A DNA stretch of 64,000 bases, taken from the NCBI RefSeq assembly GCF_026162365.1, contig NZ_JAOANW010000004.1:248001-312000 (forward strand). The letters are read 5' to 3'. A program made the position numbers and the translations under genes. Source of the stretch: Nitratireductor luteus. GTDB taxonomy: Bacteria > Pseudomonadota > Alphaproteobacteria > Rhizobiales > Rhizobiaceae. Below the pieces are notes generated by a model that made no database searches, was not told the origin of the DNA, and worked only from the letters and a program-made list of their open reading frames with translations. Numbering within the stretch: the first letter of the stretch is position 1; each line of letters begins with the position of its first letter. Of the stretch, positions 38,654 through 54,160 are shown in pieces.

Positions 38654-38705
38654 TGAAACGCAACTACGCACGCCGCTATGAAAGAACAAAAGAAGGAGAA
38701 CGATA

Positions 38706-39764: not shown

Positions 39765-39765
39765 G

Positions 39766-39866
39766 TCAGTTCACCGTTTCGCGGAAACGGTGAACTGACT
39801 GATTGCTTGATTTTACGCAATTCCGGACGGAAAACCGGTTCCCACTTTTCCTGGAATTGCTCTGGA
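39766..39866 (+). repeat. Mosaic palindromic element, copy E (best preserved, two modules)
   Basis: The left module is a perfect hairpin: TCAGTTCACCGTTTC (39766-39780), loop GCG, GAAACGGTGAACTGA (39784-39798). The right module has GCAATTCC (39817-39824) and GGAATTGC (39853-39860) around GGACGGAAAACCGG and TTCCCACTTTTC. This copy defines the consensus for the others here. The left hairpin may also act as a terminator or message stabiliser. Confidence 0.9.
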
Positions 39867-39883
39867 AGACGAAAGGGAAGCTC

Positions 39884-41062
39884 ATGGTTTCGGCCGCATC
39901 GACGATCGCAAACAACCAACCGGTCCGCCTCGGCATGGTCGGCGGCGGGCAAGGGGCCTTCATCGGCGCGGTGCACCGCATGGCCGCGCGCCTTGACGGC
40001 CACTATACGCTGGTGGCCGGAGCGCTGTCCTCGGACCCCGAGCGGGCGCGGGCTTCGGCCGAGGAGCTGGGCCTTGCGCCCGATCGCTCCTATGGCAGCT
40101 ACGAGGAGATGGCCGCGAAGGAGGCCGCCCGCGAGGACGGCATCGAGGCCGTCAGCATCGTCACGCCGAACCATGTCCACTTTCCGGCCGCAAAGGTCTT
40201 CCTCGAAGCGGGCATCCACGTCATCTGCGACAAGCCGCTGACCTCCAGCCTGAAGGACGCGAGGCAGCTTGCCGAAACGGTCGACAAAAGCGGCAGGCTG
40301 TTCGTCCTCACCCACAATTATTCCGGCTATCCGATGATCCGGCAGGCGCGCCAGATGGTGGCCGATGGCGCGCTGGGCGACATCATCCTGGTCCAGGCCG
40401 AATATCCCCAGGACTGGCTGGCCGAGCCCATCGAACAGACCGGCCAGAAGCAGGCCTCCTGGCGCACCGACCCGGCACGCTCGGGCGCCGGCGGGGCGAT
40501 CGGCGATATCGGCACCCATGCCTATCAGCTCGCCTCCTTCGTGACCGGCCTCAGGGCCGAGAGCCTTGCCGCCGATCTCGACAGCTTCGTCGACGGCCGG
40601 CAGCTCGACGACAACGCGCATATCATGCTGCGTTTTGCCGGCGGGCGCGCCAAGGGCACGATCTGGGTCAGCCAGGTGGCGCCGGGCAACGAGAACGGGC
40701 TGAAGCTCAGGGTCTACGGCACCAAGGGCGGCATCGAATGGGTGCAGGCCGATCCGAACTATCTGTGGTTCACGCCGCTGGGCGAGCCGCGCCGCCTCAT
40801 CACACGCGGCGGCGCGGGGGCGGGCGACGCGGCAGCCCGGGTGACCCGCATTCCCGGCGGCCATCCGGAAGGCTATCTGGAAGCCTTCGCGACGCTCTAC
40901 ACCGAAGCCGCCGCGATGATTCGCGCCAGGCGGGACGGCTCGGCGCTGCCCGACCTGCCTCTGCCCACCGTTCATGACGGCGTGGACGGCATGCGCTTCA
41001 TCGCCGCCTGCGTCGCATCGTCCCGCGCCGACAGCGCCTGGACCCGGCTCGACGCGGTTTGA
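39884..41062 (+). CDS. Gfo/Idh/MocA family oxidoreductase
   Basis: The 392-residue dehydrogenase has the nucleotide-binding RLGMVGGGQGAFIGAVHRMAA, VSIVTPNHVHFPAAKVFLEAG and the catalytic-lysine motif in HVICDKPLTS (DKP in place of EKP). The C-terminal domain includes GGAIGDIGTHAYQLASFVTG. The ATG at 39884 follows GAAAGGGAAGC; an earlier ATG at 39803 would translate the repeat. It forms the second isomerase-fold + oxidoreductase pair of this operon and probably interconverts hydroxyl and keto groups on a sugar or glycoside. Confidence 0.9.
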   Translation: MVSAASTIANNQPVRLGMVGGGQGAFIGAVHRMAARLDGHYTLVAGALSSDPERARASAEELGLAPDRSYGSYEEMAAKEAAREDGIEAVSIVTPNHVHFPAAKVFLEAGIHVICDKPLTSSLKDARQLAETVDKSGRLFVLTHNYSGYPMIRQARQMVADGALGDIILVQAEYPQDWLAEPIEQTGQKQASWRTDPARSGAGGAIGDIGTHAYQLASFVTGLRAESLAADLDSFVDGRQLDDNAHIMLRFAGGRAKGTIWVSQVAPGNENGLKLRVYGTKGGIEWVQADPNYLWFTPLGEPRRLITRGGAGAGDAAARVTRIPGGHPEGYLEAFATLYTEAAAMIRARRDGSALPDLPLPTVHDGVDGMRFIAACVASSRADSAWTRLDAV

Positions 41063-41099
41063 ACCCGGACAAGCCATTGACTGTGGCTGAGCTCTCCCG

Positions 41100-41119
41100 C
41101 AATTGTCGCGCGACAATTG
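41100..41119. promoter_or_regulatory. 20-bp perfect palindrome upstream of aldose epimerase
   Basis: CAATTGTCGCGCGACAATTG is fully self-complementary and sits 37 bp after the oxidoreductase stop and 16 bp before the epimerase start, next to its ribosome site. It may be an operator for an internal promoter or a hairpin controlling translation. I do not see a second copy in the window. Confidence 0.55.
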
Positions 41120-41135
41120 GCAAATGGGGGAGAGC

Positions 41136-42146
41136 ATGGCGGGCGACGTGAGGAAGATTGCCGAATGGCAGGGCGGGGACGTCGTCGAAGCCGTGCTCGA
41201 GAGCGAAGCCGGCGTCCGCCTGAACGTCATGAATTACGGCGGCGTCATCCGCGATTGGCAGGTTCCGGTAGGCGGGCAGATGCGGTCGGTCGTGTTGGGC
41301 TTCGACCGTTTCGAGGACTATCCGGCCCACAGCCCTTATTTCGGCGCGCTGGCCGGGCGGGTGGCGAACCGCGTCGGCGGCAGCCGGTTCACGCTCGACT
41401 GCCAGGAATACGAGCTGACGCCGAATGAGGGCCCCAACCATCTCCATGGCGGCCCCGGCGGCATCTCGCACAGGCTCTGGAAATTGGAGCCGCTGGTGGC
41501 AAATGCCCTGCGGTTGACCCTGTCCAGCCCCGACGGCGATATGGGATATCCGGGCAGCCTGGACATGGAGGTGATCTACCGGCTCGACGGCTATCGCCTG
41601 CATATCGATTTCGCCGCCGTGGCGAGCGCGCCGACGCCGGTCAATCTGGTGCAGCACAATTACTTCAACCTGATGGGCGGCGGCGAGGTGTTCGACCATC
41701 GCCTCGAGGTCGCCGCAAGCGCCTATACGGTCACCGACGACGCGCTCATCCCGACCGGCGAGATCAAGCCCGTTGCCGGCACCGGCTTCGATTTCAGGCA
41801 TGGCCATCCCATGCGCGATGAAAGCGGCGCGCCGGTCATTCTCGACCAGAATCTGGTGCTCGATACCCGGCGCGACCCCGCCGATCCGGTGGCCTGCCTC
41901 GTCGCGCCGGACGGCTCCTTGCGCCTCGAGCTGTTCACCGATCAGCCGGGTCTGCAGGTCTATAATGGCGGCCAGATGGATATCAGGGTGGAAGGGCTCG
42001 GAGGCCGGCGCTACCCGCGCTTCGGAGGCATGTGCCTGGAGGACCAGCACTTCCCCGATGCGGTCAACAATCCCCACTTCCCGGATACGATCGTGACGCC
42101 GGAAGCGCCCTACCGGCACCGTTGCGCCATTGAGATCCGCCCTTGA
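41136..42146 (+). CDS. galM: Aldose 1-epimerase (galactose mutarotase)
   Basis: A 336-residue mutarotase with catalytic histidines in EGPNHLHGGPGG and VNLVQHNYFNLMGG and catalytic Glu in GGMCLEDQHFPDAVNNPHFPDT. The early LNVMNYGGVIRDWQVPV is also typical. It interconverts alpha and beta anomers of free aldoses, which the cytoplasmic GH43 would release. The ATG at 41136 follows GGGGGAGAGC; a TTG at 41103 lies in the palindrome. It is the last gene of the sugar cluster, and a long-hairpin repeat follows. Confidence 0.93.
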   Translation: MAGDVRKIAEWQGGDVVEAVLESEAGVRLNVMNYGGVIRDWQVPVGGQMRSVVLGFDRFEDYPAHSPYFGALAGRVANRVGGSRFTLDCQEYELTPNEGPNHLHGGPGGISHRLWKLEPLVANALRLTLSSPDGDMGYPGSLDMEVIYRLDGYRLHIDFAAVASAPTPVNLVQHNYFNLMGGGEVFDHRLEVAASAYTVTDDALIPTGEIKPVAGTGFDFRHGHPMRDESGAPVILDQNLVLDTRRDPADPVACLVAPDGSLRLELFTDQPGLQVYNGGQMDIRVEGLGGRRYPRFGGMCLEDQHFPDAVNNPHFPDTIVTPEAPYRHRCAIEIRP

Positions 42147-42431: not shown

Positions 42432-43292
42432 TCACCCCTTGGCGAACACCACGGTCTTGTGCCCGTTGAGCATGACGCGGCTTTCAAGATGCAGTTTGAC
42501 CGCGCGGGCCAGCACCCGGCTTTCGATGTCGCGCCCGGCAGCCACGAAATCCTCCGCGCTCATGGCATGGCTCACCCGCTCGGTTTCCTGCTCGATGATC
42601 GGCCCCTCGTCGAGGTCGGGCGTCACGTAATGCGCGGTGGCGCCGATCAGCTTGACGCCGCGCTCATGGGCCTGGTGATAGGGTTTGGCGCCCTTGAAGC
42701 TGGGCAGGAACGAGTGGTGGATGTTGATCGCCTTGCCGAACAGACGGTTCGACAATTCGTTGGAAAGCACCTGCATGTAGCGGGCAAGGACGACGAGGTC
42801 CGCGCCCGTTTCCTTGACCAGCGCGAGCAGCTTCTGCTCCTGCTCCGCCTTGTTGTCCTTGGTCACCTTCCAATGGTGGTAGGGTATGTTCCCGGCCTCG
42901 GCTGTGCGGCGCGAATCCTCGTGATTGGAGACGATGGCGACGACCTCCGCATCCAGCCATCCGACGCGGATCTGGTAGAGAAGATGCAGCAGCGCGTGGT
43001 CGAATTTCGAGACCATGATGACGATCTTCGGCCGCCGCCCGCGGTCGGCCAGCGCCGTCTTCATGTCGAAGCGCGCGATCGCCGGTTCCAGCGCGCGCGT
43101 TATCTCCTCGCGCCCCACGCCTTCCGCCACCGTGAACGAAATGCGCATGAAGAAGCGGTTGGTCCGCTGATCCCAGAACTGGTTGGATTCGGCGATATTG
43201 GCGCCAAGCCCGGCAAGCTCGGTCGTCACCGCGGCAACGATGCCCGGCCTGTCCTCGCAGGAAAGGGTGATGTCGAATGTCTTGTGTGTCAT
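42432..43292 (-). CDS. purU: Formyltetrahydrofolate deformylase
   Basis: The 286-residue protein has an N-terminal ACT domain (about 1-85; LSCEDRPGIVAAVTTELAGLGANI) and a C-terminal formyltransferase-fold domain. The latter has VSKFDHALLHLLYQ, INIHHSFLPSFKGAKPYHQAHERGVKLIGATAHYV and Asp in LDEGPIIEQE. PurU hydrolyses 10-formyl-THF to THF and formate. Here it is the last gene of an operon with an oxygenase system likely to release formaldehyde, so recycling folate-bound C1 units is its probable job rather than purine balance. Confidence 0.94.
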   Translation of the reverse strand: MTHKTFDITLSCEDRPGIVAAVTTELAGLGANIAESNQFWDQRTNRFFMRISFTVAEGVGREEITRALEPAIARFDMKTALADRGRRPKIVIMVSKFDHALLHLLYQIRVGWLDAEVVAIVSNHEDSRRTAEAGNIPYHHWKVTKDNKAEQEQKLLALVKETGADLVVLARYMQVLSNELSNRLFGKAINIHHSFLPSFKGAKPYHQAHERGVKLIGATAHYVTPDLDEGPIIEQETERVSHAMSAEDFVAAGRDIESRVLARAVKLHLESRVMLNGHKTVVFAKG

Positions 43293-43347
43293 GGATGAGG
43301 TCCGGTTGTCGTGCGGGGGCGGGCGCCGGCTGGTGGGGCCGATGTCT

Positions 43348-44151
43348 CTATACGCCGTCGAGCCAGGATTGGAACGCGTTCAGCACCTCGTCCCTGGCGG
43401 CAACCTTGTGGCTTGGTTGCGGATAGGCGCCGGACTGGACCTCGGAGGCGAACTCCCGATAGGCGGAGGTGCGCTCTTCCTGAAGCCGCGCAAACTCGGC
43501 GGCGAAGTTGCGGTAGACCTTGGCGTGACGGGGAACGTGGCCCGTGTTGGCCCCTAGCACGTCGTCCGAGAACAGATATTGCGCGTGGCAGCCCGCACCG
43601 GCACCCATGGAGATCATGAAAAGCGAGCTTCTGCGTGAAATCTCGGTGGCGATCGCCTCCGGCACGACTTCGATTTCGGCGGCGAAAGCACCGGCCTCTT
43701 CCAGCGCCTTCACCTGGTTCCAGACGAGCTTGGCCGTCTCCAAGGTCTTGCCCACCGCCGCAAAGCCGCCGGTCCAGGTGCCCTTGGAAGGGATTAGGCC
43801 GACATGGCCGCAAACGGGAATGCCCTCGGCGGCAAGCCGTGCGATGGTCTGCGTGCCGGCCGAGCAATAGACCGCGTCCGCGCCCGCCTTGTAGAGCGCG
43901 AAAGCCCAGCGGATGAAGTCGTCCGTCGTGCCGATCTCGTAGAAGTTCTCGCCGGGCACGGCGAAGATCGACGGCGCGGCGTCGCGGAAGGCGGGGTCGA
44001 GCATCATGGCCGTCGGCACCGACGCCATGTCGATCCCGGCGCACTCGGCCGCCTCCGCCTCTTCCAGCGTCGTGACCCGCAGCATGGATAGCTGCCTTTT
44101 GCCGCGCAGGTCCCGCAGATCCTGCACCGTCTTTCGCTGTGCGCGCTTCAT
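43348..44151 (-). CDS. Divergent PanB-like (ketopantoate hydroxymethyltransferase family) protein
   Basis: The 267-residue TIM-barrel-type protein keeps several PanB landmarks: GIPVCGHVGLIPSKGTWTGGF, LEEAGAFAAEIEVVPEAIATEI and the following SMGAGAGCHAQYLFSDD. However, the usual PanB magnesium-site motifs (GDSL, ADMPF, KLEGG) are replaced by SVPTAMM, AVPGENF and YCSAGTQ. It may therefore not make ketopantoate. It lies 3 bp after the reductase gene and upstream of purU in the moc-type operon, which suggests a role with a C1 unit or a ring-derived keto acid. Confidence 0.72.
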   Translation of the reverse strand: MKRAQRKTVQDLRDLRGKRQLSMLRVTTLEEAEAAECAGIDMASVPTAMMLDPAFRDAAPSIFAVPGENFYEIGTTDDFIRWAFALYKAGADAVYCSAGTQTIARLAAEGIPVCGHVGLIPSKGTWTGGFAAVGKTLETAKLVWNQVKALEEAGAFAAEIEVVPEAIATEISRRSSLFMISMGAGAGCHAQYLFSDDVLGANTGHVPRHAKVYRNFAAEFARLQEERTSAYREFASEVQSGAYPQPSHKVAARDEVLNAFQSWLDGV

Positions 44152-44154
44152 CCT

Positions 44155-45339
44155 TTATCCCTTCAGTAATTGTTTGAGTCTGGTGCCCGGATCGCAAAGC
44201 ACCTCGGGCGCGACGGCGATGCCGCGTTCGATCAGCTTTTCGGCAATCGAGATGTCGCGCGCCACGGCGTTTCCGGGCCCCGCGCCGCTGGCCGACAGCA
44301 CCCGGCCCTGACCGTCGAGCTGGAACAGGACGAAGGCGCCGTCGCCCGCCTCCCGCTTCAGGAAGGGCTGATCGGCCCGCGCAAGACCGGCGACCTGCAG
44401 GCCGAGATCGTACTGATCCGACCAGAACCAGGGCACGCGCCCGAAACTGTCGCCGCAGCCCAGCATGGCGCGGGCGGCGTGGGCGCCCTGATCCTGCGCG
44501 CAACGCCAGCTTTCCAGCCGCACGGGGGCTCCGCGATAGGGAAAACTGCAGCAGTCGCCGGCGGCGAAAATGCTGGGGTCGGCCGTTCGCAGGCATCCAT
44601 CGACGACGATCCCGTTGTCGACGGCGAGCCCGGCATCGGCCGCAAGGCCCGTGATGGGCTCGGCGCCTACGCCGGCCACCACGATGTCCGCTTCGATCCG
44701 CGACCCGTCCGCCAGTTCTACGATATGTTCCTCCAATGTCTCGACCTTGGCCCCGAGCCGCAGGCGGATGCCTTCCTGCCGGTGGCGGTCCTCGAACATG
44801 GCCGCGATCTCCGCCGGAACGGCCCGCGCCATCAACCGGTCCGCGGCTTCAAGGACGGTCACTTCCGCGCCCAGCCCGCGCGCCGTGGCCGCCAGCTCCA
44901 GCCCGATAAAGCCGCCGCCGATAATGACGAGCTTTGTGCCGGCATCGATGGCCGACAGGATGGCGTCCGCATCGCCGACGCTGCGCAGGGTGCACGCCTT
45001 TTCCATGCCGGGAAAGCGGCGCGCCCGCGCGCCCGTCGCGATCAGCAGCCTGTCGTAGTCGAGCGTCCGGCCGTCCGCGAGAACGAGGCGCCTGTTCTCC
45101 CGGTCGATGCGCTGGCCCCGGGTGCCGCGCAATAGATCAATGGACAGGTCCCGGTAGCGCGTCTCCTCCGCGATGAGTTTGACGGCCGGCGGCGCATTCT
45201 TGGAAAGCGGCGGCCGCTCATAGGGAAGATGCGGCTCCTCGCCGACCAGCGTGACGGTGCCCTCGTAGCCTTCTTCGCGCAGAGTGAATGCGGCGCGCAC
45301 GCCGCACTCGCCCGCGCCGACAATGACCATGCGGCCCAT
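44155..45339 (-). CDS. FAD-dependent ferredoxin reductase (MocF-like)
   Basis: The 394-residue flavoprotein has two Rossmann motifs: VIVGAGECGVRAAFTLREEGY for FAD (about 5-25) and LVIIGGGFIGLELAATARGLGAEVTVLE for NAD(P)H, plus YDRLLIATGARARRFPG and DPSIFAAGDCCSFPY. It resembles rubredoxin/ferredoxin reductases serving Rieske or diiron oxygenases. It starts 2 bp after the Rieske ferredoxin stop, so it is the natural electron donor of that ferredoxin. The ATG at 45339 is chosen; 45330 is possible. Confidence 0.87.
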   Translation of the reverse strand: MGRMVIVGAGECGVRAAFTLREEGYEGTVTLVGEEPHLPYERPPLSKNAPPAVKLIAEETRYRDLSIDLLRGTRGQRIDRENRRLVLADGRTLDYDRLLIATGARARRFPGMEKACTLRSVGDADAILSAIDAGTKLVIIGGGFIGLELAATARGLGAEVTVLEAADRLMARAVPAEIAAMFEDRHRQEGIRLRLGAKVETLEEHIVELADGSRIEADIVVAGVGAEPITGLAADAGLAVDNGIVVDGCLRTADPSIFAAGDCCSFPYRGAPVRLESWRCAQDQGAHAARAMLGCGDSFGRVPWFWSDQYDLGLQVAGLARADQPFLKREAGDGAFVLFQLDGQGRVLSASGAGPGNAVARDISIAEKLIERGIAVAPEVLCDPGTRLKQLLKG

Positions 45340-45341
45340 CG

Positions 45342-45656
45342 TCAGGACAGGTCGATCAGGACGCGGCCGTCCTCGACCTTGACCGGATACGTCCTGAGAT
45401 TGACGCAGACCGGCGCGCCCTTGGCCTCGCCGGTGCGATAGTCGAACCGGCCATTGTGCTTGGGGCATTCGATGATGTGATCCATCACCAGCCCGTCCGC
45501 CAGGTGCACATGTTCATGGGTGCACAGGCCGTCTGTGGCGTAGAACGCGTCGTCGGGACTGCGATAGATCGCGAAGGTGCGGCCGTCATGATCGAAGCGG
45601 ATGAGGTCTTCCTCTTCGACATCGTCGACGGCACAGGCTTCCACCCATTGGCTCAT
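45342..45656 (-). CDS. Rieske [2Fe-2S] ferredoxin (MocE-like)
   Basis: A 104-residue Rieske protein with ligands Cys45 and His47 (CTHEHVHLADG) and Cys64 and His67 (CPKHNGRFD). It passes electrons from the reductase encoded next to the desaturase-like oxygenase encoded before it. MocE of the rhizopine system is the same kind of protein in the same order. The start follows GGGAGGTACGC. Confidence 0.9.
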   Translation of the reverse strand: MSQWVEACAVDDVEEEDLIRFDHDGRTFAIYRSPDDAFYATDGLCTHEHVHLADGLVMDHIIECPKHNGRFDYRTGEAKGAPVCVNLRTYPVKVEDGRVLIDLS

Positions 45657-45676
45657 GCGTACCTCCCTAGTGTCTG

Positions 45677-46765
45677 CTATTGCGCCGGCGCCAGGTCCGG
45701 CTCGACTTCGTGAAACTCGGCCCGGTAGGGCTTGGCCGTCGCCGGCAGCGCGCGCACCACGTAGTAGTCCTCGTAGCGAAGCTGGCGCAGGAACGCCGGC
45801 ACCATCTCGCGGTAGCCGTCGAGGATCGAACGGTTGGGCGCGGGCAGGTCGTGCTTGATCAGCTCGTGCAGCTGCGGCAGCGCGTGATAGGGAACCATGG
45901 GGAACATGTGGTGCTCCACATGATAGTTCATGTTCCAGTAGATGAAGCGGCTGATCGGGTTCATGTAGACGGTGCGGCTGTTCAGCCGGTGGTCCGTCAC
46001 GTCATCTGCCAGGCCGCCATGCTGCAAGAGGCCGGTCATGACATGGTGCCAGGCGCCGTAGAGACGCGGGCCGCCGATCAGCAGGAACGGCAGGATCGAG
46101 CCCGTTGCAGTTGCTGCAAGACCGGTGGCAGCGTAGATCGCCACCCAGATGCGTGCAATGCGTATGGCCTTGGGCTGTTCCTGCTCGGGAATAAAGGTCG
46201 CCTCCTCGGGGCTCAGTCGCCCGGAGGCATTGCGCGCGAGATCGACGGCCGCATGCCAGACATCGATGATGCCGAAGAAATTGAGTGCCAGCCGCGCAAG
46301 GTCGGGCGGGCGCATGACGGCGATCTCGGGATCGCGGCCGACGATCACCGTGTCCGTGTGGTGGCGCGCGTGGCTCCACCGCCAGGTGACCGGATTGCGC
46401 ATCATCATGAAGGAGGCGATCTGGTAGACGGCGTCGTTCATCCAGCGCGTCTTGAAGGCGGTGCCGTGCCCGCATTCGTGCCAGCGCGAATCGGCGGCCG
46501 AGCCGTAGAGAACGCCGTAGGCGAGGAAGAACGGGACCGACCAGGCCGAAGGGAACAGGTAGACGGCGACGCCGGCCAGAACGATCATCGACCCGAGCCA
46601 TAGGACCGTGTCGCGGATCGCCGGCCCGTCGCTGCGCTTCATCAGCGCCTTCATCTCCTTGCGCGGCACGTCCGTATGGTACCATTCGGCCGAGGCGAGG
46701 CCGGTCTCCACCGCGCGCCTGGCGTTGGGGCCGACAAGGCTGTAGTCGCGTTTTGCCGCTGCCAT
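45677..46765 (-). CDS. Fatty-acid-desaturase-fold diiron oxygenase (MocD-like)
   Basis: The 362-residue membrane protein has the three histidine boxes of the desaturase/hydroxylase superfamily: HECGH (96-100), HARHH (132-136) and HVEHH (282-286), with extra histidines near 249 and 259 (LLQHGGLADDVTDH). Two hydrophobic pairs of helices are visible (about 52-90 and 206-232). With a Rieske ferredoxin and a reductase downstream it matches the MocDEF system proposed to demethylate 3-O-methyl-scyllo-inosamine. It is the first gene of the minus-strand operon, divergent from the LacI gene. Confidence 0.88.
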   Translation of the reverse strand: MAAAKRDYSLVGPNARRAVETGLASAEWYHTDVPRKEMKALMKRSDGPAIRDTVLWLGSMIVLAGVAVYLFPSAWSVPFFLAYGVLYGSAADSRWHECGHGTAFKTRWMNDAVYQIASFMMMRNPVTWRWSHARHHTDTVIVGRDPEIAVMRPPDLARLALNFFGIIDVWHAAVDLARNASGRLSPEEATFIPEQEQPKAIRIARIWVAIYAATGLAATATGSILPFLLIGGPRLYGAWHHVMTGLLQHGGLADDVTDHRLNSRTVYMNPISRFIYWNMNYHVEHHMFPMVPYHALPQLHELIKHDLPAPNRSILDGYREMVPAFLRQLRYEDYYVVRALPATAKPYRAEFHEVEPDLAPAQ

Positions 46766-46840
46766 GGTTCAGTGTTCCTCCCTGACTATCCGCCAGTTGA
46801 TGCGCAGAGACTACGGAACGCGCGGTGATGCCTCAAGCAG

Positions 46841-46861
46841 AATGAAAGTTTTTCTTTCATT
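46841..46861. promoter_or_regulatory. 21-bp inverted repeat, candidate LacI operator
   Basis: AATGAAAG-TTTTT-CTTTCATT is perfectly symmetric and lies between the divergent MocD-like and LacI genes, with a second symmetric pair ATCATG (46866-46871) and CATGAT (46885-46890) beside it. This is the natural place for the LacI-type regulator to act on both directions. Confidence 0.6.
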
Positions 46862-46916
46862 TACTATCATGATATGCGTAAAAGCATGATGTGAATTCCT
46901 CACCGGGGAGAACGAC

Positions 46917-47951
46917 ATGGCCCGCCGCCCCACCATTGCCGATCTTGCCCGCAAGGCAGGCGTGAGCGTGGCCACCGTCGACCGCGTCCTGAACGGCCGC
47001 CACCGGGTGCGCGAAGAGACGGCCCGCCGCGTCTATGAGGCGGCGAGCGAGATCGGCTACCACGCCGCCGCCCTCATTCACCAGCGCATCACCGCCGATC
47101 TGCCGAGAATGGATTTCGGCTTCGTCCTGCAGAAGGAGACGCAGCCCTTCTACCAGGCGATGGCCCGTGCGCTGGAAGAGGCGGTCGCCGCGCGCCGCGA
47201 CATCCAGGGCAGGGCCCATATCGTCTTCGTTCGCAACCAGACGCCGGCGGAGGTTTGTGAGGCGATGCGGGCGCTGGCCGGCCGCTGCGACGCCATCGCG
47301 GCCACCAGCCTCGACCATCATCTGGTGACGCAGACCGTCGAGGCGCTTCGGGCGGAAGGAACGCCGGTCTTTTCGCTTCTGTCGGATTTCGCCCAAGGTG
47401 TGCGCGATAGCTATGTCGGGCTGAACAACATGAAAGTGGGGCGCACTGCGGCATGGTTCATCGCCCGCACAGCGCCGAGACTGGGCAAGGTGGCGATCTT
47501 CGTGGGCAGCCACCGCTGGCATGGCCACGAATTGCGCGAGACCGGCTTCCGCAGCTTCTTTCGCGAATACGGGCCCCAGTTCGAGATACTGGAAACGCTG
47601 GTCAATCTGGAAACCCGGCAGGTTACTTACGAGGCAACGCTGAGCCTGCTTTCGCGTCATCCCGACCTTGCAGGTTTCTACGTGGCCGGCGGCGGCATGG
47701 AAGGCGCCATAACCGCCTTGCGGGAAACGGCCGCGCAAGCCCCGCGTCCGTCGGTGGTGGTCAACGAGCTCACCGCCGATTCCACCCTGGCGCTGCAGGA
47801 GGGGCTTCTGATCGCGGCCCTCTCGACGCGACCCGCGGCGATGGCCCGGGCCTTGATCGACCTGATGATTGGCGCTGCAAAATCCGGCCCCGCGGATCCG
47901 CCGGGTCAGCTTTTCCTGCCGATGGCGATCCATGTGGCCGAGAGTCTTTGA
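46917..47951 (+). CDS. LacI family transcriptional regulator (moc/inositol locus)
   Basis: The 344-residue regulator has an N-terminal HTH (RPTIADLARKAGVSVATVDRVLNG, about 3-26) and the hinge TARRVYEAASEIGYH. The effector domain is periplasmic-binding-like (FGFVLQKETQPFYQAMARALEEAV; ISTRPAAMARALIDLMIGAA at the end). The VATVDRVLN form is frequent in regulators of polyol and inositol-type operons. It is divergent from mocD-like and upstream of the isomerase gene, so it probably controls both arms of the locus. Confidence 0.9.
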   Translation: MARRPTIADLARKAGVSVATVDRVLNGRHRVREETARRVYEAASEIGYHAAALIHQRITADLPRMDFGFVLQKETQPFYQAMARALEEAVAARRDIQGRAHIVFVRNQTPAEVCEAMRALAGRCDAIAATSLDHHLVTQTVEALRAEGTPVFSLLSDFAQGVRDSYVGLNNMKVGRTAAWFIARTAPRLGKVAIFVGSHRWHGHELRETGFRSFFREYGPQFEILETLVNLETRQVTYEATLSLLSRHPDLAGFYVAGGGMEGAITALRETAAQAPRPSVVVNELTADSTLALQEGLLIAALSTRPAAMARALIDLMIGAAKSGPADPPGQLFLPMAIHVAESL

Positions 47952-48089
47952 CGTAACGGCCGCACAGGTGACCGGTGTGGGATGAGAATCTATCACAAAT
48001 GAGAGGTTTTATCGCATATCCTCATTGACCGTCCTGCTGGCTCTCTTCATGCTTCGGGCTTCAACTTTGAAAGGGTCAGGGAGGCCTGC
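47952..48089 (+). promoter_or_regulatory. Gap upstream of the isomerase gene with repeated ATGAGA motifs
   Basis: This 138-bp gap holds two ATGAGA direct repeats (about 47982 and 48000) and an AATGAG (47998-48003) / CTCATT (48021-48026) inverted pair. These resemble weakly the half-sites of the 46841 palindrome, so a regulator site is plausible. No terminator with a T-run is seen. Confidence 0.35.
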
Positions 48090-48926
48090 ATGTCAGCATT
48101 CAAATCCCGGTTTGCGCTCAATCACATGTGCGCGCCGAGCCGGTCGGTAATGGAATTGTTCGACCTCGCATCGGCTGTTGGCGTCGCCGGCGTGGAGATC
48201 CGCAACGATCTAGCAGGCAATGCGATTCTCGATGGCACTCCCGCCGTACAGATCAAACGGGCCGCCGAGGAACGTGGTCAGCGCATCCTGTCGATCAACG
48301 CCCTTCAGCGCTTCAACGAGTGGACGCCCGAACGCGAGCGCGAGGCGCGTGAGCTTGCCGCCTATGCCCGCGATTGCGGTGCGCAGGCGCTGGTCCTCGT
48401 CCCCGTCAACGACGGAACGGGCCGTGCGAACGGCGAGCGCCAAGCCAATCTGCGCATCGCGCTCAAGGCGCTGCGCCCCATATTGGAGGACGCCGGCATT
48501 CGCGGGCTGGTCGAGCCGCTGGGTTTCGAGGTCTGCTCGCTGCGGCTGAAATCGGAGGCGCTGGAGGCCATCCGCGCGCTCCAGGCCGAAAGGGTTTTCA
48601 GCCTCGTCCACGACACTTTCCATCACTTCCTGGCCGGAGAGGAGGCGCTGTTTCCGCTCGACACCGGCCTCGTTCATATTTCGGGCGTGGGAGATCCCTC
48701 GGTCGCGGTGCCGGACATGCGCGACGGCCACCGCATCCTGGTCGACGAGCACGACCGGCTAGGGAACGCGGCACAGATCCGCGCCCTCGTCGCGGGCGGA
48801 TATGACGGGTTCTTCTCGTTCGAGCCGTTTTCCGAACTGGTCCACCGGGAGACAGAGCTGGAAACCGCGCTTGCCGCCAGCATCAGCGTCATCGAGCGGG
48901 ATGCGGTTATCCCGGCTTGGGTTTGA
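48090..48926 (+). CDS. Sugar phosphate isomerase/epimerase-fold protein (IolE/MocC-like)
   Basis: A 278-residue TIM-barrel protein with family stretches FALNHMCAPSRSVMELFDLASAVGVAGVEIRND, LVEPLGFEVCSLR, LVHDTFHHFLAG and FFSFEPFSELVHRE, giving the Glu-His-Glu metal site. It resembles IolH/IolE and MocC-type proteins of inositol and rhizopine catabolism, which dehydrate or isomerise keto-inositols. It follows the LacI gene and precedes the importer genes; an inositol dehydrogenase lies downstream. Confidence 0.85.
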   Translation: MSAFKSRFALNHMCAPSRSVMELFDLASAVGVAGVEIRNDLAGNAILDGTPAVQIKRAAEERGQRILSINALQRFNEWTPEREREARELAAYARDCGAQALVLVPVNDGTGRANGERQANLRIALKALRPILEDAGIRGLVEPLGFEVCSLRLKSEALEAIRALQAERVFSLVHDTFHHFLAGEEALFPLDTGLVHISGVGDPSVAVPDMRDGHRILVDEHDRLGNAAQIRALVAGGYDGFFSFEPFSELVHRETELETALAASISVIERDAVIPAWV

Positions 48927-49163
48927 CATCTCGGGACACGACCGTGGTGGAAAATAGAATACCGCTTGACGGCGGCGTAAAAAATGGAATAAAAATTACA
49001 TATTGAGCGATTTATGGTGGCTGTGTTCCATTTTTGATAGGGACCGCACGATGCGAACGCAGGTGCAGGATAGACAAGCCACTGTAAACGCTCTGGAAAA
49101 TCCCCTGGAGGGAATCCGGTCTGGTTCGGGTGATGCCGGGCACCCAATGTGGAGGAGAAATCA
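48927..49163 (+). promoter_or_regulatory. 237-bp promoter region of the ABC importer
   Basis: An inverted pair AAAAATGGAA (48980-48989) and TTCCATTTTT (49026-49035) flanks a 36-bp AT-rich stretch. CTTGACGG at about 48965-48972, followed 17 bases later by ATAAAA, is a weak promoter candidate. A small hairpin GGGTG ... CACCC lies near 49127-49144. The strong ribosome site GGAGGAG precedes the binding-protein start. Confidence 0.45.
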
Positions 49164-50108
49164 ATGAAGAAGTTTTTGCTTGGTGCAGCTCTTTCGGCGC
49201 TGATGACGAGCTCGGCCATGGCCGAGAAGATCGGCGTCTCGATGGCATTGTTTGACGACAACTTCCTGACGGTTCTGCGCAACGGTATGCAGGATTACGC
49301 TGGAGAGTTGGATGGTGTCGACCTGCAGATCGAGGATGCGCAGAACGACGTCGGAAAACAGCTCAACCAGATCCAGAACTTCATCGCTTCGGGCGTGGAT
49401 GCGGTAATCGTCAACCCGGTCGATACGGACGCGACCGTCGCCATGAGCAAGGCCGCAGCCGATGCGGGCGTGCCGCTGGTCTATGTCAATCGCGAACCCG
49501 TCAATGTCGACGATCTACCCGACAATCAGGCCTTCGTCGCGTCCGACGAGCGCGAGTCCGGCACGCTGGAGACACAGGAGATCTGCCGGCTCCTCAAGGA
49601 GCAGGGCAAGGGCGACGGCGCCCAGATCGTCGTGATGATGGGCGAGCTTTCCAACCAGGCCGCACGCCAGCGTACCCAGGACATCCATGACGTCATCGCT
49701 ACAGATGAATGTTCCTTCATGGAAATCATCGAAGAGCAGACAGCCAACTGGAACCGCACCGAGGCGGCCGATCTGATGACCAACTGGCTTTCCGCCGGCC
49801 TGAAGTTCGACGCACTCGTATCCAACAATGACGAGATGGCCATCGGGGCGATCCAGGCCATGAAGACGGCCGGCATTTCCATGGACGAAATGCTGGTCGG
49901 CGGCGTCGACGCGACCCAGGATGCGCTGGCGGCGATGGAGGCCGGGGACCTCGATGTCACTGTCTTCCAGGATGCAGCGGGCCAGGGCAAGGGCGCTGTG
50001 GATGCGGCATTGAAACTGGCGAGCGGCGAAGACGTGGATCAGAAGGTCTACATCCCCTTCCAGCTGGTCACGCCGGAAAACATCGATCAGTTCACCAGCA
50101 AGAACTGA
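49164..50108 (+). CDS. Sugar/polyol ABC transporter substrate-binding protein (FrcB/MocB-like)
   Basis: The 314-residue periplasmic protein has a signal peptide (1-20, ending SSAMA) and the ribose-binding-type fold: KIGVSMALFDDNFLTVLRNGMQ, NQIQNFIASGVDAVIVNPVDTDAT, FDALVSNNDEMAIGAIQAMKTAGI and VDATQDALAAMEAG. It is the binding protein of a CUT2-class importer. The context (MocDEF-like operon, inositol dehydrogenase) suggests an inositol derivative, matching the role of MocB. The ATG at 49164 follows GGAGGAGAAATCA. Confidence 0.92.
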   Translation: MKKFLLGAALSALMTSSAMAEKIGVSMALFDDNFLTVLRNGMQDYAGELDGVDLQIEDAQNDVGKQLNQIQNFIASGVDAVIVNPVDTDATVAMSKAAADAGVPLVYVNREPVNVDDLPDNQAFVASDERESGTLETQEICRLLKEQGKGDGAQIVVMMGELSNQAARQRTQDIHDVIATDECSFMEIIEEQTANWNRTEAADLMTNWLSAGLKFDALVSNNDEMAIGAIQAMKTAGISMDEMLVGGVDATQDALAAMEAGDLDVTVFQDAAGQGKGAVDAALKLASGEDVDQKVYIPFQLVTPENIDQFTSKN

Positions 50109-50175
50109 TCGGGCCGGGGCGCCGGGTTCCGGGACCACAATGGATCTCGGAATTGCTGGCGCGTGGAAAACGAAC

Positions 50176-50221
50176 GTTCGCAGCGCCACCGATGTCCGTG
50201 AAGACGCACGGCGCTGCGAAC
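50176..50221 (+). terminator. Intra-operon stem-loop between binding-protein and permease genes
   Basis: GTTCGCAGCGCC (50176-50187) and GGCGCTGCGAAC (50210-50221) form a perfect 12-bp stem with a 22-base loop, inside the 277-bp gap between the binding-protein and permease genes. The rest of the gap shows no gene. There is no T-run, so message stabilisation or attenuation is more likely than full termination. Confidence 0.7.
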
Positions 50222-50385
50222 TGCAAGGCATCCGCCGGACGCGCTTTCTCTCCGGTCGGGTCCTCGCAATCTCTCCAACGGTCTCCGCGTCTCGGCGGTT
50301 CGAGGTGCGGGACGGTAGCCGGCACACAAGTGCTTGAACTGCTCGATGCAGGAATGTGGCCGGCGCTTCAGGATGGACAAAAGCG

Positions 50386-51414
50386 ATGGCAAACCAGGCA
50401 CAGGCGATCACGCCCGACAAACCGGACGAAACCCACAAGCGGCCGCGTTCCCACGAGCTCAACGCGCTGCTCGGTCTGGTGGGCATCGCCCTGATCTTCG
50501 AAATTCTCGGCTGGATGCTTCAGGGGCAGAGCTTTCTTTTCAACCCGCAGCGCCTCTCGATCATGATCCTGCAAGTGGCCGTCATCGGCATCATCGCCAT
50601 CGGCGTCACCCAGGTCATCATCACCGGCGGCATCGATCTGTCATCGGGCTCGGTGGCGGGCGCGACCGCCATGGTCGCCATGAGCTTTGCCCAGGTGAGT
50701 ACCTACCCCCGCGCCGTCTATCCCGAATGGACCGATCTGCCGGTCATCATCCCCCTGCTCATAGGCCTGAGTTGCGGCCTTTTCGCCGGCCTGATCAACG
50801 GCTTGCTGATCGCGTTCACCAGAATACCGCCGTTTATCGCCACACTCGGCATGATGGTGACGGCGCGCGGCGTGGCCAAGTGGTATACGAAGGGCCAGCC
50901 CGTTTCCTTCCCGACCGACACCTTTGCTTCTCTCGGTCAGGGCATGACACCCGTCATCATATTCCTGGCCGTCGCGGCGCTGTTCCACGTCGCGCTGAAA
51001 TACACCGTCTACGGCAAGCATACCTATGCGATCGGCTCCAACGAGCAGGCGGCGCGCATGTCGGGCATCAATGTCGAACGTCATCTTGTGATCGTCTACG
51101 CCATCGCCGGTCTTCTGGCCGCGCTGGCCGGCATCGTCGTCGCCGCGCGCGGGCTGACCGCCCAGGCCGGCATGGGCATCATGTACGAGCTCGACGCCAT
51201 CGCCATGGCGGTCATCGGCGGCGTGTCGCTTTCCGGCGGGCGCGGCTCCATCGTCGGCACGCTCATCGGCGCCGTCATATTCGGCGTCATCATCTCGGGG
51301 TTCACCTTTCTGAGGCTGGATGCCTACTACCAGGAGATGATCAAGGGCGCGATCATCGTCGCTGCCGTGGTAGCCGACGTCTACCGACAGCGCATGCGCG
51401 CATCGTCGCGCTGA
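50386..51414 (+). CDS. Sugar/polyol ABC transporter permease (FrcC/RbsC type)
   Basis: The 342-residue permease has about ten hydrophobic segments. Typical RbsC-class sequences are IIAIGVTQVIITGGIDLSSGSVAGATAMV (about 77-105), GLINGLLIAFTRIPPFIATLGMMVTARGVA, SNEQAARMSGINVERHLVIVYAIAGLLAALAG and AIAMAVIGGVSLSGGRGSIVGTLIGA. A polar N-terminal tail of about 30 residues precedes the first helix. The ATG at 50386 is chosen over 50356 for context. The ATPase gene follows 29 bp after the stop. Confidence 0.93.
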   Translation: MANQAQAITPDKPDETHKRPRSHELNALLGLVGIALIFEILGWMLQGQSFLFNPQRLSIMILQVAVIGIIAIGVTQVIITGGIDLSSGSVAGATAMVAMSFAQVSTYPRAVYPEWTDLPVIIPLLIGLSCGLFAGLINGLLIAFTRIPPFIATLGMMVTARGVAKWYTKGQPVSFPTDTFASLGQGMTPVIIFLAVAALFHVALKYTVYGKHTYAIGSNEQAARMSGINVERHLVIVYAIAGLLAALAGIVVAARGLTAQAGMGIMYELDAIAMAVIGGVSLSGGRGSIVGTLIGAVIFGVIISGFTFLRLDAYYQEMIKGAIIVAAVVADVYRQRMRASSR

Positions 51415-51443
51415 GCGACGCTCTGGCGCAAAGGGAGGAACAT

Positions 51444-52226
51444 ATGAGCACCGATCGCAAGATCATCCTCAAGACCGAGGGTCTCACCAAGCATTATGGC
51501 GGCGTGCATGCGCTGGAGGATGCAGATTTCGAACTCTACGAAGGCGAGCACGTCGCCATCGTAGGCGACAACGGGGCGGGCAAGTCGACTTTCGTTCGCC
51601 AGATCACCGGCGTCGAGCAGCCGACCAGAGGGCGCATCCTGTTCGAGGGCAAGGAGGTGGAGTTCCACAATCCTGTCGCTGCGCGCGAGGTCGGCATCGA
51701 GGCGGTGTTCCAGAACCTGGCGCTGGCCGACGACCTCGACGTGCCGTCCAACATCTTTCTCGGCCGTGAGGAGGTCTATTTCAACCTCGGCCCCTTCAGC
51801 TTCCTCAACCAGCGCAAGATGTACCAGCGCTCGCGCGAGGCGCTGGAGAAGACCGGTGTGAAGATCCCCAACCTGCACAATTCGATCGCCAACATGTCGG
51901 GCGGCCAGCGCCAGTGCGTGGCCATCAGCCGCGCCGCCAGCTTTGCCTCCAAGCTCATCCTCATGGACGAGCCCACGGCCGCGCTCGGCGTGCAGGAGAC
52001 GACGCAGGTCGAAAACATCATCCGCAACCTGAAGGAGCGCGGCATCCCGCTGATCCTGGTCAGTCACAATCTGCGCCAGGTGTTCAACCTGGTCGACAAG
52101 ATATGGGTATTCCGCCGGGGCCGCATCGCCGGCATGCTGGAGGCCGGCAAGACAGACGGAAACGAGGTGGTCTCCCTCATCACCGGAGTGCAGTCCGGCG
52201 TACACGAAAACGCAAGCTACATCTGA
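51444..52226 (+). CDS. Sugar/polyol ABC transporter ATPase, single-domain (FrcA type)
   Basis: The 260-residue ATPase has Walker A GDNGAGKST, the signature MSGGQRQCVAISRA, Walker B LILMDEPTAALG and switch histidine VSHNLRQVF. Most CUT2 importers use a ~500-residue tandem ATPase (RbsA, MglA). A single domain of this length is characteristic of the FrcA branch known from rhizobial fructose import. Its ATG follows AAGGGAGGAACAT. With the two preceding genes it completes the importer. Confidence 0.94.
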   Translation: MSTDRKIILKTEGLTKHYGGVHALEDADFELYEGEHVAIVGDNGAGKSTFVRQITGVEQPTRGRILFEGKEVEFHNPVAAREVGIEAVFQNLALADDLDVPSNIFLGREEVYFNLGPFSFLNQRKMYQRSREALEKTGVKIPNLHNSIANMSGGQRQCVAISRAASFASKLILMDEPTAALGVQETTQVENIIRNLKERGIPLILVSHNLRQVFNLVDKIWVFRRGRIAGMLEAGKTDGNEVVSLITGVQSGVHENASYI

Positions 52227-52321
52227 TCCTCCCGTGGCCCGGCGGCGCCTTCGGGTGCTGTCGGGCTTCTTTTTCCCGGACCTTGGCCGGGAGCATCTAC
52301 AAGCGCAACAGAGAGCGCACA

Positions 52322-53101
52322 ATGCGAAATGCAAATACACGCGCTGTCATCGTTGGCGGCACCCAGGGATTGGGTTTCGCCATCGCGCGGCAACTGGTCG
52401 AGGAAGGTTGCCGGGCTATCGTCCTTACAGGGCGCGACCGGGCAAAAGGCGCCGACGCGGCTGCTGCTTTGGCCGGACTTGGCTGCGATGCCCGTTTCGT
52501 TGCCGCCGACCTTGGAAATCTCGATGACTGCCATAGCGTGATCGAACAGTCCGGCGCGCTCATCGGTCCGCTCAATGCGCTGGTCAATGCCGCCGCGGCA
52601 TGCGACCGCGGAACCTTGCTCGATACCACGCCGGAGGTCTGGGCCCGGCTGATGGATGTCAACGCGCGCGGGCCCTTCTTCACCATGCAGGCTTTCGTCC
52701 GGCAGGCGCGGGATCACGGGATCCATGCGTCGATCGTCAATATCGTGTCCATGGTGATCCATTGCGGCCAGTCCTATCTGGCGCCTTACTCCGCGTCCAA
52801 GGCGGCTCTTGCGAATATCACCAGGAACACGGCTCAGGCACACCGCCGCGACCATATCCGCTGCAATGCCATCGCGTGCGGGTGGATGGACACGCCGGGC
52901 GAGGACGCGACCCAGAAACGCCATCATGACGCGCCGGACAACTGGCTGGAACTGGCCGAGGCTGAACAGCCGTTCGGCCAGCTGGTCAAACCGCATCAGG
53001 TCGCGCCGCTTGCCACGTTCCTCCTGTCGCCGCAGTCCGGCGTCATGACCGGCGCGATCATCGACTGTGACCAGAATGTTGCGGGCGCCTATCCCGAATA
53101 G
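52322..53101 (+). CDS. SDR family oxidoreductase
   Basis: A 259-residue short-chain dehydrogenase: cofactor loop VGGTQGLGFAIA (about 11-22), the NAAA-type NALVNAAAACDRG in place of NNAG, catalytic Ser143, Tyr156 and Lys160 in APYSASKAAL. A long upstream extension in the same frame runs through the ATPase gene and is rejected. It lies between the importer and the inositol dehydrogenase, so it probably oxidises or reduces a ring hydroxyl or carbonyl in the same pathway. The exact substrate is unknown. Confidence 0.9.
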   Translation: MRNANTRAVIVGGTQGLGFAIARQLVEEGCRAIVLTGRDRAKGADAAAALAGLGCDARFVAADLGNLDDCHSVIEQSGALIGPLNALVNAAAACDRGTLLDTTPEVWARLMDVNARGPFFTMQAFVRQARDHGIHASIVNIVSMVIHCGQSYLAPYSASKAALANITRNTAQAHRRDHIRCNAIACGWMDTPGEDATQKRHHDAPDNWLELAEAEQPFGQLVKPHQVAPLATFLLSPQSGVMTGAIIDCDQNVAGAYPE

Positions 53102-53155
53102 CGGTTCCGCAAAGTCTGTTTCGACCCTTTAGCGAAGATATAAAGAGAACCTCCC

Positions 53156-54160
53156 ATGACCGTAAAATTTGCTCTCCTCGGTGCCGGCCGCATTGGCAAG
53201 GTCCACGCCAAGGCGATCGCCGGCAATGCCGACGCCAAGCTTGTTGCCGTTGCAGATGCCTTTGCCGAGGCGGCGCAGGCTATTGCCGGAGCCTATGGCT
53301 GCGCCGTCCGCTCGATCGACGAGATCGAGGCGGCGTCCGACGTCGACGCCGTGGTGATCTGCACGCCGACCAATACTCACGCCGATCTCATCGAGCGCTT
53401 CGCCCGCGCCGGCAAGGCGGTGTTCTGCGAGAAGCCCATCGACCTCGATCTGGCCCGCGTAAAGAGTTGCCTTTCCGTTGTCGAAGAAACCGGCGCGGTG
53501 CTGATGGTCGGCTTCAACCGCCGCTTCGATCCGCATTTCTCTGCCGTGCGCGCGGCAATCGATGAAGGCCGGATCGGTTCGGTCGAGATGATACAGATCA
53601 CCTCGCGCGATCCGGGCCCGCCGCCGGCGGACTATATCAAATCCTCGGGCGGCATCCTGCGCGACATGACAATTCACGATTTCGACATGGCGCGCTTCCT
53701 TCTGGGGGAGGAGCCGGAGTCGGTGTTTGCGACCGCATCGGTGCTGGTCGATCCGGAAATCGGCAAGCTCGGCGACCATGACAGCGTCTCCCTCATCCTG
53801 ACCACCGCTTCCGGCAAGCAATGCGCCATTTCCAACTCGCGCCGCGCCACCTATGGCTACGATCAGCGCATCGAGGTGCTGGGCTCCAAGGGTGCGGTCG
53901 CGGCGGAAAACCAACGCCCGGTCTCCATAGAGATCGCTAACGAGACGGGCTTCACGCGCCCGCCACTGCACGATTTCTTCATGACCCGCTACACCGAAGC
54001 CTATGCGGCCGAAATAGCCGCGTTCATCGCGGCGATCTCAAGCGGTGCCGCGGTCTCGCCGTCGGGGCGCGACGGCCTGGTCGCGCTGGCACTCGCCGAT
54101 GCGGCGCTGCGCTCGGTGAAGGAAGGGCGCGCGGTGAAGGTTGCGGAGGTGATGGGATAG
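53156..54160 (+). CDS. iolG: Inositol 2-dehydrogenase (IolG-type, Gfo/Idh/MocA family)
   Basis: The 334-residue enzyme has the NAD fold FALLGAGRIGKVHAKAIAG, the lysine motif FCEKPIDLDL (Lys93) and catalytic Asp170 and His174 in SGGILRDMTIHDFDMARF. GFNRRFDPHF and SISNSRRATYGYDQRIEVLG-like segments are also IolG-typical. It oxidises myo-inositol or a related cyclitol to the 2-keto form; MocA of the rhizopine pathway belongs to the same family. It ends the plus-strand arm of the locus and faces a convergent LysR gene. Confidence 0.88.
   Translation: MTVKFALLGAGRIGKVHAKAIAGNADAKLVAVADAFAEAAQAIAGAYGCAVRSIDEIEAASDVDAVVICTPTNTHADLIERFARAGKAVFCEKPIDLDLARVKSCLSVVEETGAVLMVGFNRRFDPHFSAVRAAIDEGRIGSVEMIQITSRDPGPPPADYIKSSGGILRDMTIHDFDMARFLLGEEPESVFATASVLVDPEIGKLGDHDSVSLILTTASGKQCAISNSRRATYGYDQRIEVLGSKGAVAAENQRPVSIEIANETGFTRPPLHDFFMTRYTEAYAAEIAAFIAAISSGAAVSPSGRDGLVALALADAALRSVKEGRAVKVAEVMG

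Follow-up and report, generated by a model that had tools for sequence, protein, structure and literature searches.

A LacI-associated mocDEF locus of Nitratireductor luteus as a probable module for O-methyl-inositol import and O-demethylation

Introduction

The closest described relative of the locus reported here is the moc cluster of rhizobia, which serves the catabolism of the rhizopine 3-O-methyl-scyllo-inosamine and in which mocDEF are required solely when the rhizopine is methylated. Methyl-inositols, pinitol and ononitol among them, are described as abundant in legume nodules (PMC8730688), and our literature search found no work on O-demethylation of these compounds by bacteria. In this report we focused on a twelve-gene locus at positions 42432 to 54160 of a 64,000-nucleotide stretch of DNA from Nitratireductor luteus (contig NZ_JAOANW010000004.1; hereafter the window), which is probably a LacI-controlled, self-standing module for O-methyl-inositol import and O-demethylation. 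Similar clusters lacking MocR are found repeatedly in Rhizobiales and outside it, some of them joined to inositol catabolic (iol) genes.

Results

The locus combines mocDEF with an importer and IolG

The lacI gene lies in the middle of the locus, with mocD-mocE-mocF-panB-like-purU on the minus strand (46765 to 42432) and the genes for a TIM barrel, a binding protein, a permease, an ATPase, an SDR, and IolG following it on the plus strand (to 54160). All twelve genes named in the initial annotation are intact open reading frames (ORFs) at the positions claimed for them. Its expectation that the oxygenase would group with MocD and not with lipid desaturases is also borne out, both by 77% identity to the MocD of the classical cluster described below and by position in a tree. 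In this first tree, the window oxygenase falls among the MocD rows, far from the desaturase-family proteins L002 and L003 of the same genome; the desaturase outliers (L002, L003, and L110) sit on very long branches, six rows are wrong-frame ORFs, and the third other desaturase-family protein of the genome, L004, has no row. A second tree comprises 133 rows taken in the tblastn frame and has no outgroup, the desaturase outliers having fallen below the cover filter, and the three His boxes are kept in 133 of 133 MocD rows. The ferredoxin passes the MocE family model (Table 1).

The locus resembles the demethylating half of the rhizopine cluster

Our reference for the classical system is the pSymA cluster of S. 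meliloti HM006 (L104), which was reached by a plasmid search with MocD and whose genes, unannotated in the record, were named by similarity and order: mocC, a Gfo/Idh gene, a ChbG-like gene, MocA, MocB, MocR, mocD, mocE, mocF, PanB-like, and PurU. We regard it as a classical rhizopine cluster because of its moc-boxes—two before mocD, with 0 mismatches and the published spacing, and, before mocB, a weaker pair with 1 and 2 mismatches—the motif and its arrangement being as described for strain L5-30 (PMC10107442). The same cluster is found in R. leguminosarum RCAM2802 (L103), where the PanB-like gene is split over two ORFs (12744-13602). Besides MocD, the window shares with L104 MocF (54% identity), the PanB-like protein (64%), PurU (52%), and a binding protein 69% identical to MocB. 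The PanB-like and PurU genes had been listed in the initial annotation as additions to the classical moc cluster, a view that fails because both follow mocF in L104; they are therefore long-standing partners of MocDEF rather than additions peculiar to the window.

MocR, MocC, and MocA are the best match of no gene in the window neighbourhood (row L000w), so the locus is not a member of the rhizopine cluster, and it should work like that cluster's demethylating half. MocC passes the IolE model, whereas the window barrel does not. Across the 64-kb window there are three moc-box pairs, each with 3+3 mismatches and none in the gaps of the locus; the lacI-mocD gap holds a single box-like word with 2 mismatches. 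What stands of the original proposal is a MocDEF system tied to inositol import and IolG and controlled by LacI rather than MocR, which makes the substrate probably a methylated inositol other than rhizopine; its IolE/MocC-like barrel, considered below, does not stand.

A LacI-type module (L070; mocD 78%) is also present on pSymB of S. meliloti 1021, a strain said to be a rhizopine non-producer (PMC6668481). The MocD of L104 is 93% identical to this LacI-type MocD, and the mocDE DNA of the two (L104 10005-11451 and L070 7141-8578) is 88% identical over 1447 bp, falling to 75% after mocE, which suggests that rhizopine and LacI-type copies have recombined locally in S. meliloti. A single origin of classical MocD was considered and rejected, its two rows not forming one clade in the 133-row tree, which can still accommodate one origin; the two classical MocB rows group as a single clade, which branches from among the LacI-type binding proteins in an unrooted tree.

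Related clusters are widespread, and some adjoin iol genes

Gene identities, kinship, and linkage, like the operator shared among relatives, are read here from sequence comparison. A scan for the PanB-like protein in one genome each of 84,980 species, which used short peptide patterns and reaches close relatives only, gave 52 loci. Their partners are MocD (50 loci), MocE (48), MocF (46), LacI of this type (39), the barrel (36), the binding protein (36), PurU (25), IolG (22), SDR (6), and MocR (0), counts that argue against a chance combination of genes. The SDR gene looks like a movable extra, its order and orientation relative to iolG varying among clades (L020, L106, L115, and others).

A survey that started from MocD covered 397 genomes of the order and found it in 60 of them, at 76 places, 74 of which were taken as neighbourhoods (those left out being the window itself and a second fragment in G264). 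By tblastn, these hold MocE in 61 cases, PanB-like in 39, LacI in 37, MocF in 31, the binding protein in 18, the barrel in 13, IolG in 12, any of iolB/C/D/E in 7, IolG or an iol core gene in 17, PurU in 3, and MocR in none. As a control we used the 14 neighbourhoods anchored on NF052284, the NCBI model for rhizopine substrate-binding proteins, which contain MocD, MocE, and PanB-like in 0 cases, MocR in 11, IolG in 1, and iol core genes in 3, among them the locus with IolG; as a control this set is small and, being inosamine-like itself, not neutral. NF052284 had been tried as a route to the classical moc cluster and was abandoned, since 14 of 397 genomes were above its cut-off but none of the 14 neighbourhoods had MocD, MocE, or PanB-like; its loci are a second pool of MocR/MocC loci.

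In several taxa the two pathways adjoin. Five genomes, which all belong to a single genus, have LacI-mocDEF next to iolC-D-E-B, and in Marivivens mocDE-PanB-like adjoins barrel-importer-iolG-iolC-iolD-iolE. A Burkholderia plasmid has mocDEF opposite LacI, an isomerase-like gene, the barrel, and iolG, without PanB-like, and two contigs of Acidimicrobiia carry mocEF-PanB-like-mocD-iolG (L053 IolG, 379 bits against a cut-off of 355). This joined gene order is stronger evidence for inositol than the iol counts.

Importer, barrel, and IolG may point to inositol

The nearest solved relative of the binding protein is 4yo7 (3e-63; the next, 3e-37), whose ligand we take to be myo-inositol. The protein does not reach the NF052284 cut-off (37.7 of 420 bits), and neither does the MocB of L104 match this model at 1e-20, which indicates that NF052284 marks another protein group. 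The importer is of the CUT2 type, with matches to monosaccharide models below cut-off. The barrel (48090-48926) has no NCBIfam match and stays below the IolE cut-off, the three IolE matches listed for the genome all lying elsewhere. Its nearest solved relatives are instead 4hgx/2q02 (8e-38, against 0.06 for B. subtilis IolI), presumably STM4435, the IolI2 of Salmonella. This identity agrees with the gene order in PMC10783015, which places iolI2 between STM4434 and iolH and calls it uncharacterised. Among 10 listed places in the genome, the window IolG alone is above the TIGR04380 cut-off. The iolB and iolE genes and an iolC fused to an aldolase gene (iolC-J) are on contig C8, above cut-offs, and an iolD 64% identical to that of Marivivens lies between them.

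A palindromic operator is shared among relatives

The divergent lacI-mocD pair is found in 88 related loci. In the 89 lacI-mocD gaps, window included, the word TGATAGAA occurs in 60 and ATGATAGA in 52, and the two together yield the palindrome ATGATAGAaTCTATCAT. A 17-bp operator model trained on 80 gaps, with the window's clade excluded, scores at least 12 bits in 62 of the 80, and at least one site is present in 65 of the 88 loci. By this model, a LacI operator precedes mocD in most relatives of the window, not in its own clade. Six loci of one genus (g3; one is cut by a contig end) have a site on the importer side of lacI as well; eight weak sites (12 bits) in other loci fall within the barrel gene and were left out of the operator count. 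No site of at least 8 bits was found in L104, L103, or the genome's iol cluster. An inverted repeat, AAAAATGGAA...TTCCATTTTT, at window positions 48980-49070 upstream of the binding-protein gene, with arms largely kept in the clade, could be a separate regulatory site.

The PanB-like protein accompanies MocD

The PanB-like protein stays below the cut-offs for PanB (TIGR00222, 97.5 of 207.6 bits; NF001452, 122.7 of 272 bits), the genome has a separate gene above the PanB cut-off, and public records label the PanB-like family as a pantothenate enzyme. Its predicted structure (predicted local distance difference test score, 86) has the PanB fold, with 3vav as the best Foldseek match at 29% identity. 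In an alignment of 73 PanB-like rows, some of them near copies, with one true PanB, the GDS, VDMP, and KLEGG stretches of the latter are replaced, and at least 95% of the PanB-like rows retain the GHVGL histidine and the glutamate preceding VP. We take the replaced stretches to hold PanB's metal ligands and substrate lysine, and the kept histidine and glutamate to be PanB active-site residues. Because the protein stays with MocD in 50 of 52 loci while importers vary between loci, its link appears to be with the demethylation step and not with inositol. This association is not invariable: L036 has MocE and no MocD despite about 1.9 kb of sequence upstream of mocE, and in L032, the other locus without MocD, the sequence begins at the PanB-like gene. 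PurU is not a strict partner, since only 25 of the 52 PanB-like loci and 3 of the 74 MocD neighbourhoods have it; the genome has four PurU genes above the TIGR00655 cut-off, window's included.

Relatives of rhizopine-cluster proteins fall into two pools

Ten L104 proteins were searched against two sets of loci, the first being the 14 NF052284-anchored loci and the second 132 loci with at least 3 mutual copies (52 PanB-like-anchored, 74 MocD-anchored, and 6 plasmid). In the first set there are relatives of MocC in 11 of 14 loci (best, 69%), of MocR in 11 (54%), and of ChbG in 6 (68%), and none in 14 of MocB, MocD, MocF, PanB-like, or PurU. The second set has, at 45% identity or more, relatives of MocD in 125 loci (best, 93%), PanB-like in 95 (84%), MocF in 80 (74%), MocB in 55 (77%), and PurU in 29 (82%), of MocC in 3 (45-47%), and of MocR and ChbG in none. 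MocA has no relative at 45% in either set, and the Gfo gene has one, at 46%, in the second. Anchoring accounts for part of the MocD and PanB-like counts, and a different binding protein served as anchor for the first set; it does not account for the lack of MocD, MocF, PanB-like, and PurU in the first set or of MocR and ChbG in the second. The simplest reading of this split would be that the moc cluster is a fusion of an inosamine module with an O-methyl module, which fits the substrate 3-O-methyl-scyllo-inosamine, whose two halves correspond to the two modules. The reverse course, in which the moc cluster arose first and was split up later, is possible. On another contig (G000:C45:165041-181204), a relative of the MocR-type regulator (40%) is separated by about 14 kb from a Gfo/IolG-like gene and may belong to a separate inosamine locus.

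Features of the locus and its surroundings

The features are collected in Table 1. At 63.7%, the G+C content of the locus differs little from the 63.3% of the window, and neither ARAGORN nor Rfam at gathering scores gave matches in the window. A neighbouring sugar locus (window 37043-42146) comprises a glycosidase-like gene, a barrel gene that matches IolE weakly (57 of 290 bits), a Gfo/Idh gene, and GalM; barrel, Gfo, and GalM genes of this type also adjoin the moc-like locus L011.

Table 1. Genes and candidate elements of the locus, in window coordinates
Feature	Position	Strand	Evidence
purU, formyltetrahydrofolate deformylase	42432..43292	-	TIGR00655, 335 bits (cut-off 286)
PanB-like protein, MocD-linked subfamily	43348..44151	-	Pfam PF02548 Pantoate_transf, 3e-39; PanB fold
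mocF-like ferredoxin reductase, start uncertain	44155..45345	-	Pyr_redox_2 and Reductase_C
mocE-like Rieske ferredoxin	45342..45656	-	TIGR02377 MocE family, 189 bits (cut-off 136)
mocD-like membrane tri-histidine oxygenase (HECGH, HARHH, HVEHH)	45677..46765	-	PF00487, 1e-35
Candidate regulator half-site element, lacI-mocD gap	46850..46870	.	Kept in 9-row alignment of nearest relatives
LacI-family regulator	46917..47951	+	PF00356 and Peripla_BP_4
Candidate half-site element, lacI-barrel gap	47987..48006	.	Kept in 8 aligned gaps, window included
IolI2-like TIM barrel, possible inosose isomerase	48090..48926	+	PF01261 (AP_endonuc_2)
Periplasmic binding protein, MocB group	49149..50108	+	69% to MocB of L104
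CUT2 importer permease	50356..51414	+	PF02653
CUT2 importer ATPase	51444..52226	+	Sugar-importer ATPase models
Terminator-like hairpin between importer and SDR-iolG	52236..52267	+	14 pairs plus T-run
SDR-family dehydrogenase	52322..53101	+	NF004847, 351 bits (cut-off 240)
iolG, inositol 2-dehydrogenase	53156..54160	+	TIGR04380, 425 bits (cut-off 355)

Discussion

Our main reading of the locus is a mocDEF system that probably stands by itself, next to an inositol-type importer and IolG and under a LacI-type regulator. From this gene content we infer the substrate, all reactions, the function of the PanB-like protein, and the regulation in this strain. The MocB-type binding protein and the CUT2 importer would take up an O-methylated inositol, and MocD, with electrons passing from NADH via MocF to MocE, would hydroxylate the methyl group, which would be released as formaldehyde. 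The freed inositol would then be oxidised by IolG, while the SDR may use a different hydroxyl or isomer and the IolI2-like barrel may convert the inosose isomer if the substrate is of the chiro type; IolE, D, B, and C-J from the other contig would complete breakdown. The C1 unit would pass via folate, with PurU releasing formate, and the most likely role for the PanB-like protein is in handling the hydroxymethyl or formaldehyde unit. As to the substrate, pinitol or another chiro type is our tentative first choice, the only ground for preferring it being that an inosose isomerase would be useful for chiro-inositol freed from pinitol; ononitol or another methyl-myo-inositol is a possible second, another methyl sugar is unlikely, and rhizopine very unlikely indeed.

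Several observations weigh against an O-methyl-inositol module. First, MocD neighbourhoods hold IolG or an iol core gene no more often (17 of 74) than the loci of the sole control do (3 of 14), and 57 of the 74 have no such gene within about 10 kb. A second MocDE-PanB-like group (L133-L139 and L127-L130), with other importers, a Gfo gene, a different TIM barrel, and no IolG, perhaps serves another O-methyl sugar, and together with the iol-less neighbourhoods it means that MocD alone does not imply inositol. Second, the 17-bp palindrome was rejected for the window itself, where the best score in the gap is -1.7 bits, and Marivivens L106 likewise has no site of at least 8 bits; the window clade keeps only half-sites, of the TGATAG type, in both gaps. 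Third, the hairpin at 52236..52267, the strongest of 8 found where chance expectation for its class is 8.1, may separate SDR-iolG from the importer genes.

The likeliest alternative is that the locus demethylates an O-methyl sugar that is not a cyclitol and that IolG acts on a sugar or sugar acid. The CUT2 importer with its sub-cut-off matches to monosaccharide models would suit it, as would the second group with its other sugar importers, but an IolG above the inositol dehydrogenase cut-off, the joined orders with iol core genes in other taxa, and 4yo7 as the nearest solved binding protein make it improbable. That an inositol importer-IolG operon merely neighbours an unrelated oxygenase operon, for a lipid for example, is more doubtful still: some plasmids do carry LacI-mocDEF-PanB-like without importer or IolG, yet the same set of genes is seen together in several genera and in Acidimicrobiia, a common operator flanks lacI on both sides in one genus, and none of the three other PF00487 loci of the genome (0 of 3) has MocE, PanB-like, LacI, or IolG of this type. 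A rhizopine catabolic cluster under another regulator is hardly credible, since the kinship of MocD and MocB and the L104 order of MocE, MocF, PanB-like, and PurU are set against the lack of best matches to MocR, MocC, and MocA, regulatory gaps without a moc-box pair, the pSymB module of the reported non-producer S. meliloti 1021, and several carriers from sea water or vents.

An O-methyl-inositol module would also offer a view of where the rhizopine cluster came from. With less confidence than for the module itself, we consider it possible that moc was fused from free-living modules for inosamine (MocR, MocC, ChbG) and for O-methyl-inositol (MocB, MocDEF, PanB-like, PurU), that the window holds the second of these in its self-standing, LacI-run form, and that the PanB-like protein is a new enzyme without the PanB metal site that takes the C1 unit leaving the oxygenase. 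If true, this would name genes for methyl-inositol O-demethylation, a route testable in S. meliloti Rm1021 for example, suggest a source of the rhizopine cluster, and give a first handle on the PanB-like family.

LacI-mocDE(F)-PanB-like clusters such as those of Chelativorans (L006-L010), Phyllobacterium (L038), Marivivens (L106), and S. meliloti 1021 pSymB (L070), of which our literature search found no experimental study, share the core genes and mostly the divergent layout, but PurU, IolG, importer, and SDR are variable and the window clade lacks the 17-bp palindrome. Compared with the ketopantoate hydroxymethyltransferase PanB, the PanB-like protein has the same fold and retains the active-site histidine and glutamate, whereas it falls below the model cut-offs and its metal-ligand and lysine positions are replaced. 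The myo-inositol pathway (iolGEDBCJ) is represented by IolG in the window and by iolB, E, D, and C-J elsewhere in the genome, the difference being that the window would add an oxygenative O-demethylation before IolG. Finally, the window and the classical moc cluster have in common the MocD, MocE, MocF, PanB-like, PurU order and a MocB-type binding protein, but the window has LacI in place of MocR, no moc-box pairs in its gaps, no MocC, and no close MocA, and carries in addition a permease, an ATPase, an IolI2-like barrel, an SDR, and a true IolG.

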